Origin: Methanosarcina barkeri MS
Lineage (GTDB): Archaea; Halobacteriota; Methanosarcinia; Methanosarcinales; Methanosarcinaceae
Direction of reading: 5' to 3'
Length of the DNA stretch: 64,000 bases
Assembly: GCF_000970025.1 (NCBI RefSeq)
Contig: NZ_CP009528.1
Coordinates: forward strand, 1,971,168 to 2,035,167
Shown: positions 19,167 through 61,792 of the stretch, piece by piece
Layout: each line of letters begins with the position of its first letter
Numbering within the stretch: the stretch's first letter is position 1
Notes under the pieces: generated by a model
Database searches by the model: none
What the model saw: the letters and a program-made list of their open reading frames with translations, nothing else
Told to the model about the DNA's origin: nothing
Translations under genes and position numbers: made by a program

Positions 19167-20822
19167 ATGCATCTTATAGAAGAGTCCCTCGGTAATTACT
19201 TTGAGAAACAGGTGGCTGTAGACCCTGACCACGAGTTTATAATTTATCCTGACCGCAACCTTCGTTTTACTTATGGGCAGTTCAACGAAAGGGTCAATAA
19301 CCTTGCAAAAGGGCTGCTAGCTATAGGGATAACAAAAGGGGATCATGTAGGAATCTGGGCAAAAAATGTTCCTGATTGGCTTACCTTCATGTTTGCCACG
19401 GCAAAAATAGGAGCAGTACTTGTTACTGTGAATACTGCCTACAAGAGCCATGAGGTCGAATATGTATTAAAACAATCCGATATGAAGGCTCTGGCTATGA
19501 TTGATAGCTACAGAGACGTTGATTATCTCGAAATAATTAATGAACTGGTCCCTGAGCTCAAAACCTCTGAGAGAGGGAGACTGAAAAGCAAAAACTTTCC
19601 CTATCTTAAGAGTATAATTTACGTAGGACAGGAAAAGCACCGGGGTATGTATAACACAAACGAGCTTATGCTTCTTGGCAGCCATTATCCCGATGACAAG
19701 CTCTGCGAGATTATGGCCAGTGTCGACTGTGACGATGTTGTCAATATGCAGTATACATCAGGGACTACCGGGTTTCCTAAAGGAGTCATGCTGACCCATA
19801 AAAATATCCTGAATAATGGACTTTCTATCGGAGACCGCCAGAAGTTCACCTATATAGATAGGCTCTGTTTTCCTGTGCCACTTTTTCACTGTTTTGGAAT
19901 AGTACTCGGAGTTATGGCCGTTCTGACTCACAGAGCAACGCTTGTTATGCTCGAGGTTTTTGATCCTCTATTAGTACTTGCCGCGGTACATAAAGAGAAA
20001 TGTACGGCTCTCTACGGCGTGCCAACAATGTTTATTGCCGAGTATACGCATCCCATGTTCGACATGTTTGACCTATCTTCTCTCAGAACGGGGATTATGG
20101 CAGGTTCGACCTGCCCTGTGGAAGCCATGAAAAAGGTCGTAAACGATATGCACTGTTATCAGATTACCAGTGTTTACGGGCTTACGGAAGCATCCCCTGG
20201 TATGACTCAAACCGCTGTAGATGATCCTCTAGAACTCAGGGTCGAAACTGTTGGCAAACATTTTCCGGGCGTAGAGGTCAGGGTTGTTAATCCCGATACC
20301 AATGAGCCGGTGCCTCTAAACACTGTAGGAGAGATATGCTGTCGCGGATATAATGTAATGAAAGGTTACTATAAGATGCCTGAAGAAACGAAAAAAGTTA
20401 TCGATGAAGGCGGCTGGCTTCACAGTGGAGACCTCGGAACCTGTGACGAAGACGGTTATTACAGAATCACAGGCAGGATTAAGGACATGATTATCCGGGG
20501 AGGGGAAAACATCTATCCAAGAGAGATTGAGGAACTCCTGCTTACCATGCCCGAAATTACAGACGTCCAGGTTGTGGGCATCCCTGACAAAAAATACGGG
20601 GAAATTGTAGGTGCTTTTGTGATTCTCAAAAAAGGTGCAGACCTTACAGAAGCCGATATCAGGGATTATGCCTTAAGCAAGATCGCACGCTACAAGGTTC
20701 CAAAACATGTATTCATTGTAGATGAATTCCCGCTGACAGCAAGCGGTAAAATTCAAAAATACAGGCTAAGGGAACTGGCTGTGGAACTTGTCAATAAGCA
20801 GGATGAGATAGCAATTGAGTAA
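19167..20822 (+). CDS. AMP-forming acyl-CoA ligase
   Basis: A 551-residue ANL-superfamily enzyme. The P-loop is [11 protein letters not shown] (about residues 195-205), the A5 motif YGLTEASP (about 341), the A7/A8 region [24 protein letters not shown] (about 422-445) and the catalytic lysine motif [10 protein letters not shown] near residue 530. It activates a carboxylic acid through an acyl-adenylate. The sequence is closer to medium- or long-chain FadD-type ligases than to acetyl-CoA synthetase. With the XRE-cupin regulator and thioesterase it forms a small acyl-CoA module that looks bacterial in style. The physiological substrate is unknown. Confidence 0.92.
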
Positions 20823-20856: not shown

Positions 20857-20947
20857 ATTGACAGCTATTGATAGCATAGGTTAAAATGTTAATCAGTTAT
20901 TATTAACCACCCAGGTTGTTTTATCGGCCATTCAGGTCGATTCTATT

Positions 20948-21050
20948 TATTCATTGAATTCTACTTCATTGAATTCTATATCTTCATTGAATTCTATCTT
21001 TATTGAATTCCATATCTTCATTGAATTCTATATCTTCATTGAATTTCAAT
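20948..21050. repeat. Degenerate 18-bp tandem repeat
   Basis: About five units of the type TTCATTGAATTCTATATC in head-to-tail order with small length changes. It is non-coding and lies in the gap downstream of the acyl-CoA ligase gene. Confidence 0.85.
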
Positions 21051-21224
21051 TTGTTAATCTTTTGCTTTAAAATTTTAAAACCATTAAAAAATAAGATACT
21101 AGCAAATTTTAAAGATTGATTACATTTTTGAAGAGCATTTTAATTTGTTCCCATATTAAAAAGTGTATGACAATACAAAAACGATGGGTAATTGAATATT
21201 TGACGTAATTTATTATATATACGA

Positions 21225-21490
21225 TTTTAGCATTAGAAGGATGTAGTTGTAAGAGAAGCGCAATAGTGCACCTTTGTGCATAGCGTATGGGGAGTTTTTC
21301 TCTAGGGGTTTCATCGATTGAGAACTCAGGTATCAAAAGGAGCTCTCAATCAATCACCACAACTAATTAAATGTCTGCACTGTTCTCTTGCAACTAAATG
21401 AAGAATATGGGGGAGTATTCTTCAAGGGGGTTTCACCGATTGAGAGCCCAAGGGTCATCATAACAGGGCTCTCAATCAATCACCAACTTT
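21225..21490 (+). ncRNA. Candidate structured RNA with two homologous stem-loop modules
   Basis: Two related modules lie in tandem, each with a GGGGAGT-like block, then GGGGTTTCA-CGATTGAGA, then a long hairpin. Module 1: GATTGAGAACTC (21316-21327) pairs with GAGCTCTCAATC (21340-21351), one mismatch. Module 2: GATTGAGAGCCC (21438-21449) pairs perfectly with GGGCTCTCAATC (21466-21477). Both are followed by AATCACCA. A TATA-like TTATTATATATA at about 21210-21222 precedes the first module at a suitable distance, and a T-rich stretch follows the second. The strand is inferred from that. No open frame spans it. It could also be a pair of transposon-derived repeats. Confidence 0.5.
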
Positions 21491-21756
21491 TAACTTAATT
21501 TTAACTTTTAACTTGAACTATTTTTGACTAAACTCTTCGCACAATTTATTGATTTGCATAAATCGTACAAATAATATAAATATAATTTTTCTCCCGATTC
21601 TCCCCACTGAAGTTCAGCTATTGTGCTTTCCCCAGTTATGACCTTTATAAATATCTTTCAAACAATTAATAACTGTCCTATTCTATTTAAGTCCTTTGAT
21701 GAGTCACTTTTAAGAGTTCATATTGTTTGTATAAGTGCTAACAAAATTTACTTATT

Positions 21757-22457: not shown

Positions 22458-23381
22458 GTGGGGTCTGGTGTCTCGCCTGTGGATATAAATGAGCTGGATG
22501 AAGTCAGAACTATTGAAGAAGGATTCAAAAAAGCGTATAGTGGGGACCAAAAAGAAACAGTAGAAGCTATTGACAAGCTCAAGGGCTTCGCGCTCCAGTT
22601 GATTCACCTGGACGCCAATGCTGAAAACGAGCTGGATATAAAAGCGCTGATCATCTCTATAGGGGACATAGCGAGGGTATCTGCTGAAATGAAAATGGAG
22701 CAGGTATGCTCAGTTTCAGGTTGTGTCCTTGTAGATATAGCACTTGAGGCTGCCAGTCAAAAGAGGGAGCCGGTTGCTATAAAGGCTTTATCCATTGTCG
22801 GGAGCCTTGCCATGGAGTTTGCCGGAAAAGGCTTGGGTGTAGCAGCCAGAAGTACATCCGAATCGCTCGGAACTTGTGGGAAGGGCTCTTCAAGAATGAA
22901 AATGGAAACGATGATAAGCCTTTCTGAGGTTTACCTCATGCAGGTATCACTGATATCTATAGAAAAAGGACTTCATAAGGCCGGGATTGCTGCTATAGGC
23001 TACCTTGGGGAGATAGGAATCGCTTCGGCCAAACAGGCAATAGAAACCAGTACTCTGGAAGCTGCAGTCATTCTTGAAGATCTGGGTAATACCGCTGTAA
23101 GTGAAAATAACGAGTCCTACGCAAAGGCAGTAATTGAGGCACTTGAAAACCTGGGCACAGAGGCATCTCAGGGCGGAATGAAAAACGTACTTGTCCAGAT
23201 CGCGTGGTCTCTGGAAATGATCCGGGTACTTGCTCTGGATCGAGGCATGAAAGGAGCTTGCTTTGCTGCAAAGGCTGCGCTTGAATCCATCAACACGGCA
23301 GGCTTACTTGACGCAGAACAGAACCTGGAAAAAATCAGGGAAATAAAGGAATTCCATTCTGTTATCCTGAAAAAAAGTTAA
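22458..23381 (+). CDS. All-helical repeat protein of unknown function
   Basis: A 307-residue soluble, almost wholly alpha-helical protein with Ala/Glu/Leu-rich repeats of about 35-40 residues (ALIISIGDIARVSAEMKMEQ, AIKALSIVGSLAMEFAGKGL, AAIGYLGEIGIASAKQAIE, AVIEALENLGTEASQGGMK), resembling HEAT-like or TPR-like solenoids. Composition is clearly coding. There is no catalytic motif and no membrane segment. The start is GTG 22458; no strong binding site is visible, and a start slightly upstream or downstream is possible. It stands alone upstream of a tRNA on the other strand. Confidence 0.7.
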   Translation: MGSGVSPVDINELDEVRTIEEGFKKAYSGDQKETVEAIDKLKGFALQLIHLDANAENELDIKALIISIGDIARVSAEMKMEQVCSVSGCVLVDIALEAASQKREPVAIKALSIVGSLAMEFAGKGLGVAARSTSESLGTCGKGSSRMKMETMISLSEVYLMQVSLISIEKGLHKAGIAAIGYLGEIGIASAKQAIETSTLEAAVILEDLGNTAVSENNESYAKAVIEALENLGTEASQGGMKNVLVQIAWSLEMIRVLALDRGMKGACFAAKAALESINTAGLLDAEQNLEKIREIKEFHSVILKKS

Positions 23382-23578
23382 AAAAGCATTGGGGAATTTA
23401 GAGTTAAGGAAGCAGAACCTGAAAAATATATTTTTCTGTATTTAAATACAAAAAGATTCTAAAAGAAAACAAATAGTTAAAGAAAAATCATAAATCACTA
23501 GAAAAATCATTATAGAAAATTCATGAATCACTGTAGAAAATCATTATAAAAAATAAGTTCTGTGTGTATAATTTAATA

Positions 23579-23656
23579 TGGTGCTCCGGCCGGGATTCGA
23601 ACCCGAGTCTTCGGCTCGAAAGGCCGGAATGATTGGCCGGACTACACTACCGGAGC
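23579..23656 (-). tRNA. tRNA-Glu (TTC)
   Basis: On the minus strand the acceptor GCTCCGG pairs with CCGGAGC, the discriminator is A and CCA is encoded (23579-23581). The anticodon loop CTTTCGA gives anticodon TTC (plus-strand 23618-23620), glutamate. The T-arm has GGTTCGAATCC in full. The first anticodon-stem pair is C-A, the other four pair. No intron is present. The sequence is identical to the gene at 25133-25210. Confidence 0.95.
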
Positions 23657-24264: not shown

Positions 24265-24534
24265 TCAGAAATAAAGTGGGTTTTCGTAGTATTCTGAGTT
24301 ATCAGCTTTCAGTGCATTTAGGTAGTCGAATACCCAGACATCATTTCCACCAAACTGTGTGTTAATGAGATCGATAGTATCAGGTTCCTCAGCTGCGCTC
24401 ACGTAGAAAAGATCTGTAGCATCATTCCATACAGGCTTTTTGGTAACGGTCACTTTCCCAATAATATCAAAGTAATACGTGTCGTTACACTTGACCCAGC
24501 CAGTTACATCAGTATATACAGCGTTTAATTTATA
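24265..24534 (-). pseudogene. 3' remnant of an unidentified, probably secreted protein gene
   Basis: The minus-strand frame is open from 24534 without a start codon and reads through KLNAVYTDVTGWVKCNDTYYFDIIGKV to DYLNALKADNSEYYENPLYF and a stop. Codon use and composition (Asp, Asn, Tyr, Trp-rich) look like an extracellular Methanosarcina protein. The 5' part is missing; a TAA precedes the frame. No family is recognised. An internal ATG would give only 62 residues. Confidence 0.5.
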
Positions 24535-24914: not shown

Positions 24915-25132
24915 AAAAATAAACATGAACTCTGAACAAACCAGAAGGTATCGTAAGAACTACTTCTGAGATCTGATACATTAAAAAACGAGAAAGTAAT
25001 CAACATCATGGAACAAAAACTGTAAATACCGGCCAGATAGAAATAAAATACTCTCCATCCTAAGAAACATAAAACTAAGAAATCCGAAACACAGTTCTTT
25101 TGGTGTCAATAGAAAAGTATTGTAGAAAAGTA

Positions 25133-25210
25133 TGGTGCTCCGGCCGGGATTCGAACCCGAGTCTTCGGCTCGAAAGGCCGGAATGATTGGCCGGACTACA
25201 CTACCGGAGC
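25133..25210 (-). tRNA. tRNA-Glu (TTC), second identical copy
   Basis: Same 78-nt sequence as the gene at 23579-23656, including encoded CCA and anticodon TTC. Similarity ends at the gene boundaries except for AATATGG/AGTATGG just after the 3' end. It is on the same strand, 1.5 kb away, with its own flanks. Confidence 0.95.
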
Positions 25211-25920: not shown

Positions 25921-26145
25921 TTACTCTTCTACAGGAGTGATCAGTATAATGTTATTACCGCGAAGTACTACTGAACCAAGAGAACGAACTTTTTCTCCTT
26001 TTACGATCTCCATGGTGTCCACGAGATGAAGGTTCATATAGTCGTCCACGCTCTTAAGAGTGCCTTCAAGCAGATTAAGATCGCCTTTCATTTCTACCTG
26101 GATTTTTGATCCAACAATTTTCTGAACTTTTTTATTTGGGAACAA
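25921..26145 (-). CDS. LSm/Sm-like archaeal protein
   Basis: A 74-residue Sm-fold protein. The Sm1 motif is seen in VGSKIQVEMKGDLNLLEGTLKSVDDYMNLHLVD and the Sm2 motif in LGSVVLRGNNIILITP. Archaeal SmAPs form ring-shaped heptamers that bind U-rich RNA. It precedes the winged-helix/Cys protein on the same strand. Length and both motifs are normal for the family. Confidence 0.92.
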   Translation of the reverse strand: MFPNKKVQKIVGSKIQVEMKGDLNLLEGTLKSVDDYMNLHLVDTMEIVKGEKVRSLGSVVLRGNNIILITPVEE

Positions 26146-59774: not shown

Positions 59775-61792
59775 CAGAGTACCTCCATTATTAACTTAAC
59801 AAGTATTATCAGCAGGCTCACACCCGCAATTACTACAATTGCATAGGTCTGGACAACTCCGGTCTGGACTCTCCTGAGCTCCTCACTTACACCAACTGTA
59901 AGAATTCCGATTCCTTCCACGATACTGTCAATGATCACATCAAGCACCTGAGAAAGGAGAGCAATGATTCCGTATATGATTCCGAGTGAGAAGAACTCGG
60001 TATAGATTTCATGCTGGTAATAGCGTTTGTAAAGCAGCCTGTAAACCGGATTCTTCATGGAAGCAAGCGGCCCGAGTTTAATTATCCTCAGATAATAGAT
60101 CACAAAAGCAACTGCAAGACCTGCAATGGCAACTATCATCGGAAGCCACTGGACAAAGAGAGATTCATTTCCTGCTGCCCCTACAAGCTCATTTCGACCT
60201 AAGGCTGCAAGGCTTCCTATGTCAAGATTCACGAAGCTGTTTGCAAATGTTTCTTCAAGGAAATCCATGAACCCTGTTTTTGTCAGCCCTCCAAATAAAA
60301 GGGAAAAGATTGCCAGAATTGCGAGGGGAATTGTCATAATAGCGGGAGATTCGTGTCCGTGGTAGTCACTTCTCGGCTTCCCTGTAAAGGTCATGAAGAT
60401 CAGCCTGAATATGTAAATTGAAGTGAGGAGTGCAGCCGCAATTGAAAATACATAGGGAATCCAGTTGTTGCTGTTCTCTCCAAAGAGATAGGCAGCTTCA
60501 ATAATCGCATCCTTTGAGAAGAAACCACTTGTTCCTATTGAGGTTCCGGGTATCCCGAAGCCTGCCAGAGCCAGTGCTGCAATTGCCATAGTAGCAGCCG
60601 TAACTGGCATTACCTTTCTTACGCCTCCGAGTTCCCTCATATCTTGGGTACCTACTGCGTGGATTACGCTACCTGCACAGAGGAAAAGAAGAGCCTTAAA
60701 GAAAGCATGGTTGATCAGGTGGAAGAGAGAAATGCCTACTGCTTCAAGCCCGATTGCCGAGCCGAGGCCAAGGCCAAGCATCATGTATCCGAGCTGGCTT
60801 ATGGTTGAATAAGCAAGCACACGCTTGAGGTCATTCATCACAATGCCCATCGTGCCCGCAAAGAGCGCTGTAAAGCCTCCAAGGTAGGCAACTACCATGA
60901 GGGAGTCAGGAGCTGCAATAAACATCGGGAAGGTTCTTGCTACCAAATAGACACCGGCAGTAACCATTGTTGCGGCATGGATAAGGGCAGAAACCGTTGT
61001 CGGGCCTTCCATTGCGTCAGGCAGCCATACATGCAGAGGGAATTGCCCGGACTTTCCTACGGCCCCTCCGAAGAAGAGCAGGGTGATGATGGTAAGATGA
61101 CTTACTTCAAAACCGAAAATGTTTGAATGAAGCGCAGAAAGCTGCGGGATATAACTAAAGATTTCGTCAAAACGGAGTAGATATGTCCCTTCCTGGAATC
61201 CGCCTGCAAGTTTCAGGAGATCGGAGGTCAGTACAATTATCCCTGTAAGGAACATCACATCTCCGATCCTGGTTGTCAGGAAAGCCTTCTTGGCAGCCGC
61301 TGCAGCTGAGGGCCTTTCGAACCAGAAACCAATTAAGAGATAAGAACAGAACCCTACAAGTTCCCAGGAAACAAAGAGCTGAAGGATGTTGTCCGAAAGT
61401 GCCAGGGAAAGCATTGCTGCGGTAAAGAGTGAGGTTTCTGCAAAATACCTTGCTTCTCCCGGGTCACCGGACATATAGCTAACTGCATAGATATGTATCA
61501 GCAGGCTCACAAAAGAGACCATTGACAGCATTACTGCGGCCAGGGGATCAATCAACACTCCTATATTGAGCACTGCAAACCAGGGATAGGACTGGCTTAT
61601 AACCTCGTTGGGGTTTACCAGCAGCCTGAGCGTAATCATTAAAGAGATTACGAAGGAAGCGGCAATTGCCAGTATAGGGACAACGGCGCCACCTGATGGC
61701 ATTTTCCTGCCAAAAAAGAAGGTGATTACAAAAGCCAGTGCCGGAAGCAGGGGAATTAAAAATGCTAATTCTTCCAGAGCCGTTTTTACCAC
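59774..61792 (-). CDS. fpoL: F420H2 dehydrogenase membrane subunit FpoL
   Basis: A 672-residue antiporter-like subunit (NuoL type) with about 16 helices and the long C-terminal lateral helix. Signatures: [73 protein letters not shown], and [24 protein letters not shown]. It forms the distal proton channel. Its start overlaps fpoK by 7 bp. Confidence 0.96.

Follow-up and report, generated by a model that had tools for sequence, protein, structure and literature searches.

Species of Methanosarcina are the main genetic models among methane-producing archaea. Several described RNAs offer points of comparison for the locus analysed here. The non-coding RNAs CsrB and RsmZ display repeated GGA or GGG sequences in hairpin loops and linkers, with the motif ANGGA, and have the CsrA protein as their partner. 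Archaeal H/ACA guide RNAs are short and consist of one or two hairpins, containing an internal pseudouridylation pocket, followed by an A-rich or ACC tail. The cuckoo/CcsR and ar14-type RNAs are multi-copy families of sibling sRNAs in bacteria, and the motif shared among such siblings is C-rich (anti-Shine-Dalgarno).

Small RNAs have also been described in Methanosarcina itself, only a few of them having known targets (PMC5867862). In M. mazei, those whose targets were studied (sRNA154, sRNA162 and sRNA41) all act by base-pairing (PMC3510493, PMC5867862). The sRNA154 RNA, 130 nt long, is encoded between MM3337 and MM3338 and has an NrpR operator; sRNA162, of 191 nt, adjoins an ArsR-family gene (PMC3177094, PMC3510493). 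Both are reported in Methanosarcina only, sRNA162 forming a duplicated pair with sRNA171.

The locus described here lies in a 64,000-nucleotide stretch of DNA (the whole of which is called the window) from the M. barkeri MS chromosome of 4,533,209 bp. Its predicted product resembles sRNA154, sRNA162/171 and sRNA41 in being a stand-alone intergenic archaeal sRNA with stem-loops, theirs measuring 130-200 nt. Identity with sRNA154 was rejected: the locus is different, the NrpR operator GGTA-N6-TACC is absent from the promoter of the window RNA (the closest match in the window, 24321-24334, is 3 kb off) and the sRNA154 primer fragments (PMC11549558) are missing from the loci examined (L021, L024, L085 and L090). 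The sRNA162/171 pair was rejected as well; it maps between an ArsR-family regulator gene and MM2442, and in the window the RNA is flanked by an AMP-binding synthetase gene on one side and, on the other, by an unrelated gene with no Pfam match. The structured family is undescribed in the papers and databases searched, a comparison to which the M. mazei 2009 dRNA-seq list and the sRNA41 sequence did not belong, and single members may already bear an sRNA number. As a separate observation, the window holds three exact GGTA-N6-TACC sites (1729-1742, 24321-24334 and 60883-60896), against 0.3 expected.

Gene layout and fold

A stand-alone, intergenic RNA gene of about 250 nt, comprising two modules of about 85 nt each, probably occupies positions 21239 to about 21490 (+) of the window. 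The RNA would be transcribed and would act in trans. The features of the locus are listed below, R1 being the covariance model of the module.

19167 to 20822 (+): AMP-binding acyl-CoA-synthetase-type gene (Pfam PF00501, E 9e-98), the upstream neighbour; synteny anchor, outside the RNA
21192 to 21221 (+): promoter, conserved TTGAATATTTGACGTAATTTATTATATATAC, with the TATA box inside it at 21211-21220 (26-species conservation)
21236 to 21242 (+): predicted transcription start region, from the TATA spacing
21244 to 21256 (+): 5' arm of the long-range helix P1, TAGTTGTAAGAGA, pairing with 21384-21396
21266 to 21281 (+): small variable hairpin within P1 (GTGCAC...GTGCAT), a predicted fold with 3 consensus pairs only
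21278 to 21360 (+): module A (R1, 73.7 bits)
21289 to 21294 (+): G-rich loop of module A, GGGGAG
21304 to 21315 (+): linker of module A, AGGGGTTTCATC, 99% conserved
21316 to 21351 (+): hairpin of module A
21352 to 21358 (+): tail of module A, AATCACC
21384 to 21396 (+): 3' arm of P1, TCTCTTGCAACTA, partner of the 5' arm at 21244-21256
21400 to 21486 (+): module B (R1, 92.7 bits, E 5e-23 in the window)
21400 to 21423 (+): first hairpin of module B, with its GGGGGA loop at 21409-21414
21424 to 21437 (+): linker of module B, AAGGGGGTTTCACC
21438 to 21477 (+): 12-bp hairpin of module B
21478 to 21484 (+): tail of module B, AATCACC
21486 to 21530 (+): T-rich stretch, the likely 3' end or terminator region by its sequence

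The initial annotation of this DNA had proposed a tandem stem-loop RNA at 21225-21490, with a TATA-like box upstream. The box is present at 21211-21220, and the element lies where it was placed; a start at 21225, however, takes in DNA between promoter and transcription start, the RNA probably beginning at 21236-21242. Promoter positions are mostly at least 90% conserved in 26 species, conservation declining farther upstream, and TTGAATATTTGACGTAATTTATTATATATA is the best conserved part of the 26 orthologues outside the transcribed region. At the other end, conservation falls off past AATCACC. An AT-rich tandem repeat (20940-21045, about 6 copies of the 18-bp unit ATTCTATATCTTCATTGA) separates the RNA promoter from the AMP-binding gene.

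The further statement that no reading frame crosses the element is borne out in part: the plus strand carries no ORF with a species-conserved stop, but a minus-strand ORF of 75 aa with a TTG start overlaps it (21109-21336). The test of stop conservation covered the plus strand, where candidate starts in the 26 species have scattered stop columns and short ORFs occur in single species only. A small-protein mRNA was rejected, since no plus-strand frame keeps its stop between species.

Both modules follow one plan, in which a GGGGA-loop hairpin is joined by the invariant linker AGGGGUUUCA to a 12-bp hairpin that ends in AAUCACC. The repeats and 12-bp stems previously noted in the two modules were found as claimed: direct repeats of 31 nt (81% identity) and 18 nt (100%) recur at a spacing of 122-126 nt, module B contains a perfect 12-bp inverted repeat (21438-21449/21466-21477), and the corresponding stem of module A (21316-21327/21340-21351) has 11 pairs and one A.C mismatch. 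The reported CTC/GAG versus CCC/GGG difference amounts to one T-A to C-G change on both arms. One covarying pair within the window is weak evidence, yet the pairing data from 26 species confirm the structure. Folding of 21240-21490 yields -83.1 kcal/mol (z -5.3), with none of 200 shuffles equally good; taken singly, module B reaches z -5.2 and module A merely z -1.5.

The 26 orthologues were aligned after minus-strand loci had been reoriented. In their consensus fold the 13-bp P1 encloses module A, both modules have a 12-bp hairpin, and module B has a further one of 9 bp with the GGGGGA loop, making 46 pairs with 98.9% of cells paired, versus only about 37-50% when the structure was slid along the alignment as a control. 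Double changes affect 11 of the 46 pairs, compared with 5.0 in shuffles (0/500 shuffles match). In P1 alone, 99.1% of cells in the 13 pairs are paired and 10 species show a G-C to A-U change. When the modules themselves are compared, 9 of 20 pairs have changed on both sides, a figure matched in 0/500 shuffles. Sequence comparison thus supports the proposed tandem stem-loop RNA and the covariation of its arms.

The mazei-like clade has a well-formed GGGG-loop hairpin in module A (GAATACTTGGGGAGTATTC); in the barkeri-like clade, to which the window RNA belongs, this hairpin has decayed. Among unpaired elements, conservation is highest in the linker AGGGGUUUCA (99% in either module), followed by the AAUCACC tails. 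The linker is predicted to be about half to two-thirds unpaired, and in one module parts of it are predicted to pair with the tail's ACC; the GGGGGA loop of module B is predicted to be 94% unpaired. In each RNA of this type (subfamily 1) there are 6-9 G-tracts at least three nucleotides long, and several fall within loops or the linker. Within one RNA, the hairpin-2 loops of modules A and B are more alike than when species are re-paired (0/5000), a likeness that comes from the mazei-like clade (0/5000) and not from the barkeri-like clade (1081/5000). It fits gene conversion or a shared partner.

Distribution and related subfamilies

In a DNA search of 60 relatives, 26 of the 31 Methanosarcina genomes proved to carry the complete element, and one sister genus yielded a single-module relative. 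In genome G008 the orthologous locus is G008:C1:2888715-2888992. With R1, the module was found in 31 of 112 family genomes, the 26 of Methanosarcina and 5 in two sister genera, and nowhere in the rest of the order. The covariance-model search that had been suggested thus proved favourable, recovering the module across Methanosarcina. The comparison with Rfam yielded no family match at the element, which counts as new: at the Rfam 15 gathering threshold, none of the related loci of subfamilies 1-3 is matched and the window gives two tRNA-Glu only. These tRNA-Glu (TTC) genes (23577-23656 and 25131-25210, both -) are identical over 80 nt and 1.55 kb apart.

Module number differs between genera. 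Methanosarcina has two per RNA, genus g2 a single one-module gene and genus g21 two or three R1 matches; one g21 genome (G064) carries three single-module genes about 650 bp apart. Single-module genes in the sister genera, these three included, possess TATA boxes of their own. One Methanosarcina genome (G027) has two two-module genes, the second 0.9 kb downstream of the first. Subfamily 1 is missing from G005, a 99% complete genome, so the gene is dispensable and can be lost.

In 23 of 26 loci the AMP-binding synthetase gene precedes the RNA gene and is read in the same direction (20 recognized by motif, at 212-919 bp from the TATA box), and two of the remaining three loci end at contig ends (L017 and L020). 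The downstream gene is not the same in every species; its start is roughly 1 kb off, the one in the window being the gene at 22458. The module was also detected on a contig from a 'Bacteroidales' bin (L150, DCFT01000224.1). Horizontal transfer was rejected, as the same Methanosarcina AMP-binding synthetase gene adjoins the module there; a misbinned Methanosarcina contig is the likelier and probable explanation.

Beyond what the initial annotation described, the window RNA proved to be a branch within a larger, multi-copy family. Weak R1 matches (1.9e-5 to 0.002 per genome) led to subfamily 2, itself matched at 1.9e-5 per genome. A model built from subfamily 2 RNAs only (R2) in turn matches the window RNA (21387-21504, 6.5e-6 per 64 kb) and uncovered a third, multi-copy subfamily. 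Members of both are found elsewhere in the source chromosome:

G000:C2:649658-649787 (-): subfamily 2 RNA (loci L059/L120)
G000:C2:2971789-2972680 (+): subfamily 3 locus L108, one single-module and one two-module RNA gene

The plan of the superfamily, a GGG-loop hairpin followed by a GGGGUU linker and a second hairpin, is that of the window RNA as well. In subfamily 2 it takes the form CGAUUAAGAG-UUAAGGGGUUUUU-CUCUUAAUCG, UAGGGGUUGAAUCACAC, AAUUGGGAGCC-loop-GGCUCCCAAUU. Throughout the genus this RNA hardly varies, even in species that have no window RNA; its promoter is conserved (GTCGTATAGGTTATATACCTCTATAACATAAAG), the Shine-Dalgarno-like GAGGTGG of its second loop is invariant in 28 RNAs, and an FmdE-like gene, so named from its sequence, follows about 0.9 kb further downstream. 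The plan of subfamily 3 is AGAUUGAGAG-UUAAAGGGUUUC-CUCUCAAUCU, GGGUUGGAUCAUC, GGUAGGG...CCCUACC. At the loci examined its genes lie mostly downstream of an ornithine/DAP-decarboxylase-type gene, often in tandem; those of L108 lie between such a gene and a 2-oxoacid oxidoreductase operon. The subfamily 3 structure shows double changes in 29 cells (0/500 shuffles); counting only the pairs affected gives a weaker result (37/500). Three or more tracts of GGG or longer are present in most of the single-module RNAs from subfamilies 2 and 3.

Subfamily 2 is present in about one copy per genome and subfamily 3 in up to about 12. R2 and the subfamily 3 model, R3, have matches in 37 and 35 genomes, respectively, up to about 12 in each. 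The R3 matches, some of which are subfamily 2, come from 35 of the 186 genomes of the order, at most 12 per genome, and from genera g1, g2 and g21 only; in 393 genomes drawn from the phylum R3 found no match elsewhere. As judged by these model searches of 186 order and 393 phylum genomes, the superfamily is confined to Methanosarcina and the sister genera closest to it. R3 matches subfamily 2 at about 1e-12, and subfamilies 2 and 3 are by this comparison clearly homologous. R3 scores the window RNA at 0.0008, partly aligned through another hairpin. Homology of subfamily 1 to the other two appears likely but is not proven, because scores are reciprocal but weaker and R3 aligns its own hairpin 1 to hairpin 2 of subfamily 1.

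Possible modes of action

The window RNA would most likely be a trans-acting regulatory RNA presenting repeated G-rich single-stranded motifs. It can be proposed, tentatively, that the stems are stands for G-rich motifs that bind a protein or RNA partner. Each RNA would hold out several such motifs, namely the hairpin-1 loop GGGA, the linker GGGGUU and the hairpin-2 loop GGG, through which the partner would be bound. A protein titrated or scaffolded by the repeated sites seems the more likely partner, an mRNA engaged by short base-pairing the less likely one. The repetition of identical motifs, each on its own stem, in a multi-copy family whose module number varies by genus looks more like a set of protein sites than like a single antisense seed. 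The working principle would be that of CsrB-type RNAs, but with a different protein: CsrA (PF02599) was not found in the source genome (controls from E. coli, B. subtilis and T. maritima were positive) and was rejected as partner. A broader and rather doubtful extension would unite the three subfamilies in one archaeal class of protein-titrating or scaffolding RNAs, with GGGG loops and linkers sequestering a putative RNA-binding regulator, as a functional counterpart of CsrB/RsmZ. An LSM-domain protein gene lies 4.4 kb downstream of the RNA gene (25924-26145, -) and is not adjacent to it; an Sm-like protein is a natural candidate for an RNA partner.

The serious rival is a base-pairing sRNA, whose linker GGGGUUUCA or AAUCACC would pair with target mRNAs near ribosome-binding sites. 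This is possible, though on the unlikely side, and has the better prior for the genus because all three M. mazei sRNAs with studied targets base-pair. The linker, unpaired, 10 nt long and 99% conserved, resembles an sRNA seed, and AAUCACC, which could pair with GGUGAUU, includes the AUCACC found at the 16S 3' end; M. mazei sRNAs are known to mask ribosome-binding sites (PMC3510493, PMC5867862). Against this, exact 11-nt complements outside the RNA number 0-2 per genome, about the level of reversed controls, ORFs contain nearly all such sites, and the eight loci include just two mutually similar pairs. With self matches removed, perfect complements of the subfamily 1 linker are no commoner than reversed-pattern controls and none is widely recurrent, which leans away from long antisense pairing; pairing via short or imperfect seeds is possible. 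Two loci from two genomes (L189:1501-1511 and L194:1501-1511) share a conserved intergenic TGATTCAACCCC, the complement of the subfamily 2 linker, upstream of a thiL-like gene; this site is missing in the other four genomes searched.

Two other readings of the G-rich motifs are improbable. In the first, the RNAs would act as decoys, either for the 16S 3' end or for Shine-Dalgarno sequences, titrating ribosome or mRNA ends, as the superfamily linker GGUUGGAUCAUC mimics the 16S tail GGCUGGAUCACC and the subfamily 2 loop contains the Shine-Dalgarno-like GAGGUG. The subfamily 3 linker shares 10 of 12 positions with the tail, the differences being two transitions, the tail occurs 3 times in the source genome, and GAGGUGG is unchanged in 28 subfamily 2 RNAs. 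The resemblance was noticed post hoc, however, the window RNA linker GGGGUUUCAUC lacks the GGAUCA part and the anti-Shine-Dalgarno core CCUCC occurs in no subfamily. In the second reading, the more improbable one, the tracts of GGG or longer (6-9 per subfamily 1 RNA, at least three in most single-module RNAs of subfamilies 2 and 3) would form an intra- or intermolecular G-quadruplex that senses K+ or binds a quadruplex protein. Part of these tracts sit in hairpin-2 stems, though, covarying stems keep the remainder apart, and in some species GGG shrinks to GGA or UGGG.

A cis-acting leader (riboswitch or attenuator) of the downstream gene would account for a structured RNA in an intergenic region, but is highly improbable given that this gene varies between species and lies about 1 kb off, and that a T-rich stretch follows the last module. 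That the modules are inverted or direct repeats at the ends of an IS or MITE is barely credible: the superfamily has several related copies per genome and a DDE transposase gene (PF01609/PF13546; 16675-17667, +), unrelated to the window RNA, lies 3.6 kb upstream, but the place is orthologous in 26 species with the same gene adjoining in 23 of 26 loci, no transposase or other coding sequence separates the modules, a conserved promoter of its own precedes each gene, pairs show compensatory changes and 2.9 million viral contigs contain no match.

Comparison with described RNAs

The trans-acting RNA with G-rich motifs favoured here recalls H/ACA guide RNAs in its hairpins and its tail ending in ACC. 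Assignment to that class was rejected in view of 12-bp stems without internal loops in 26 species, no evident k-turn signature and no Rfam match. With CsrB and RsmZ it shares multiple G-tract motifs (6-9) in hairpin loops and linkers; the motifs are GGGG(U/A), as opposed to ANGGA, and CsrA being absent, the comparison holds for the working principle only. A covariation-supported superfamily that is absent from Rfam, reaches about a dozen copies per genome and carries up to 9 G-tracts per RNA suggests a regulatory RNA system that none of the sources searched recognises as a family. From the bacterial sibling sRNAs the family differs in that its motif is G-rich rather than C-rich, and the two have no sequence relation. 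In organization, it resembles multi-copy siblings such as LhrC of Listeria (PMC4132741), with paralogous copies, tandem arrays, two stem-loops and a shared unpaired motif.
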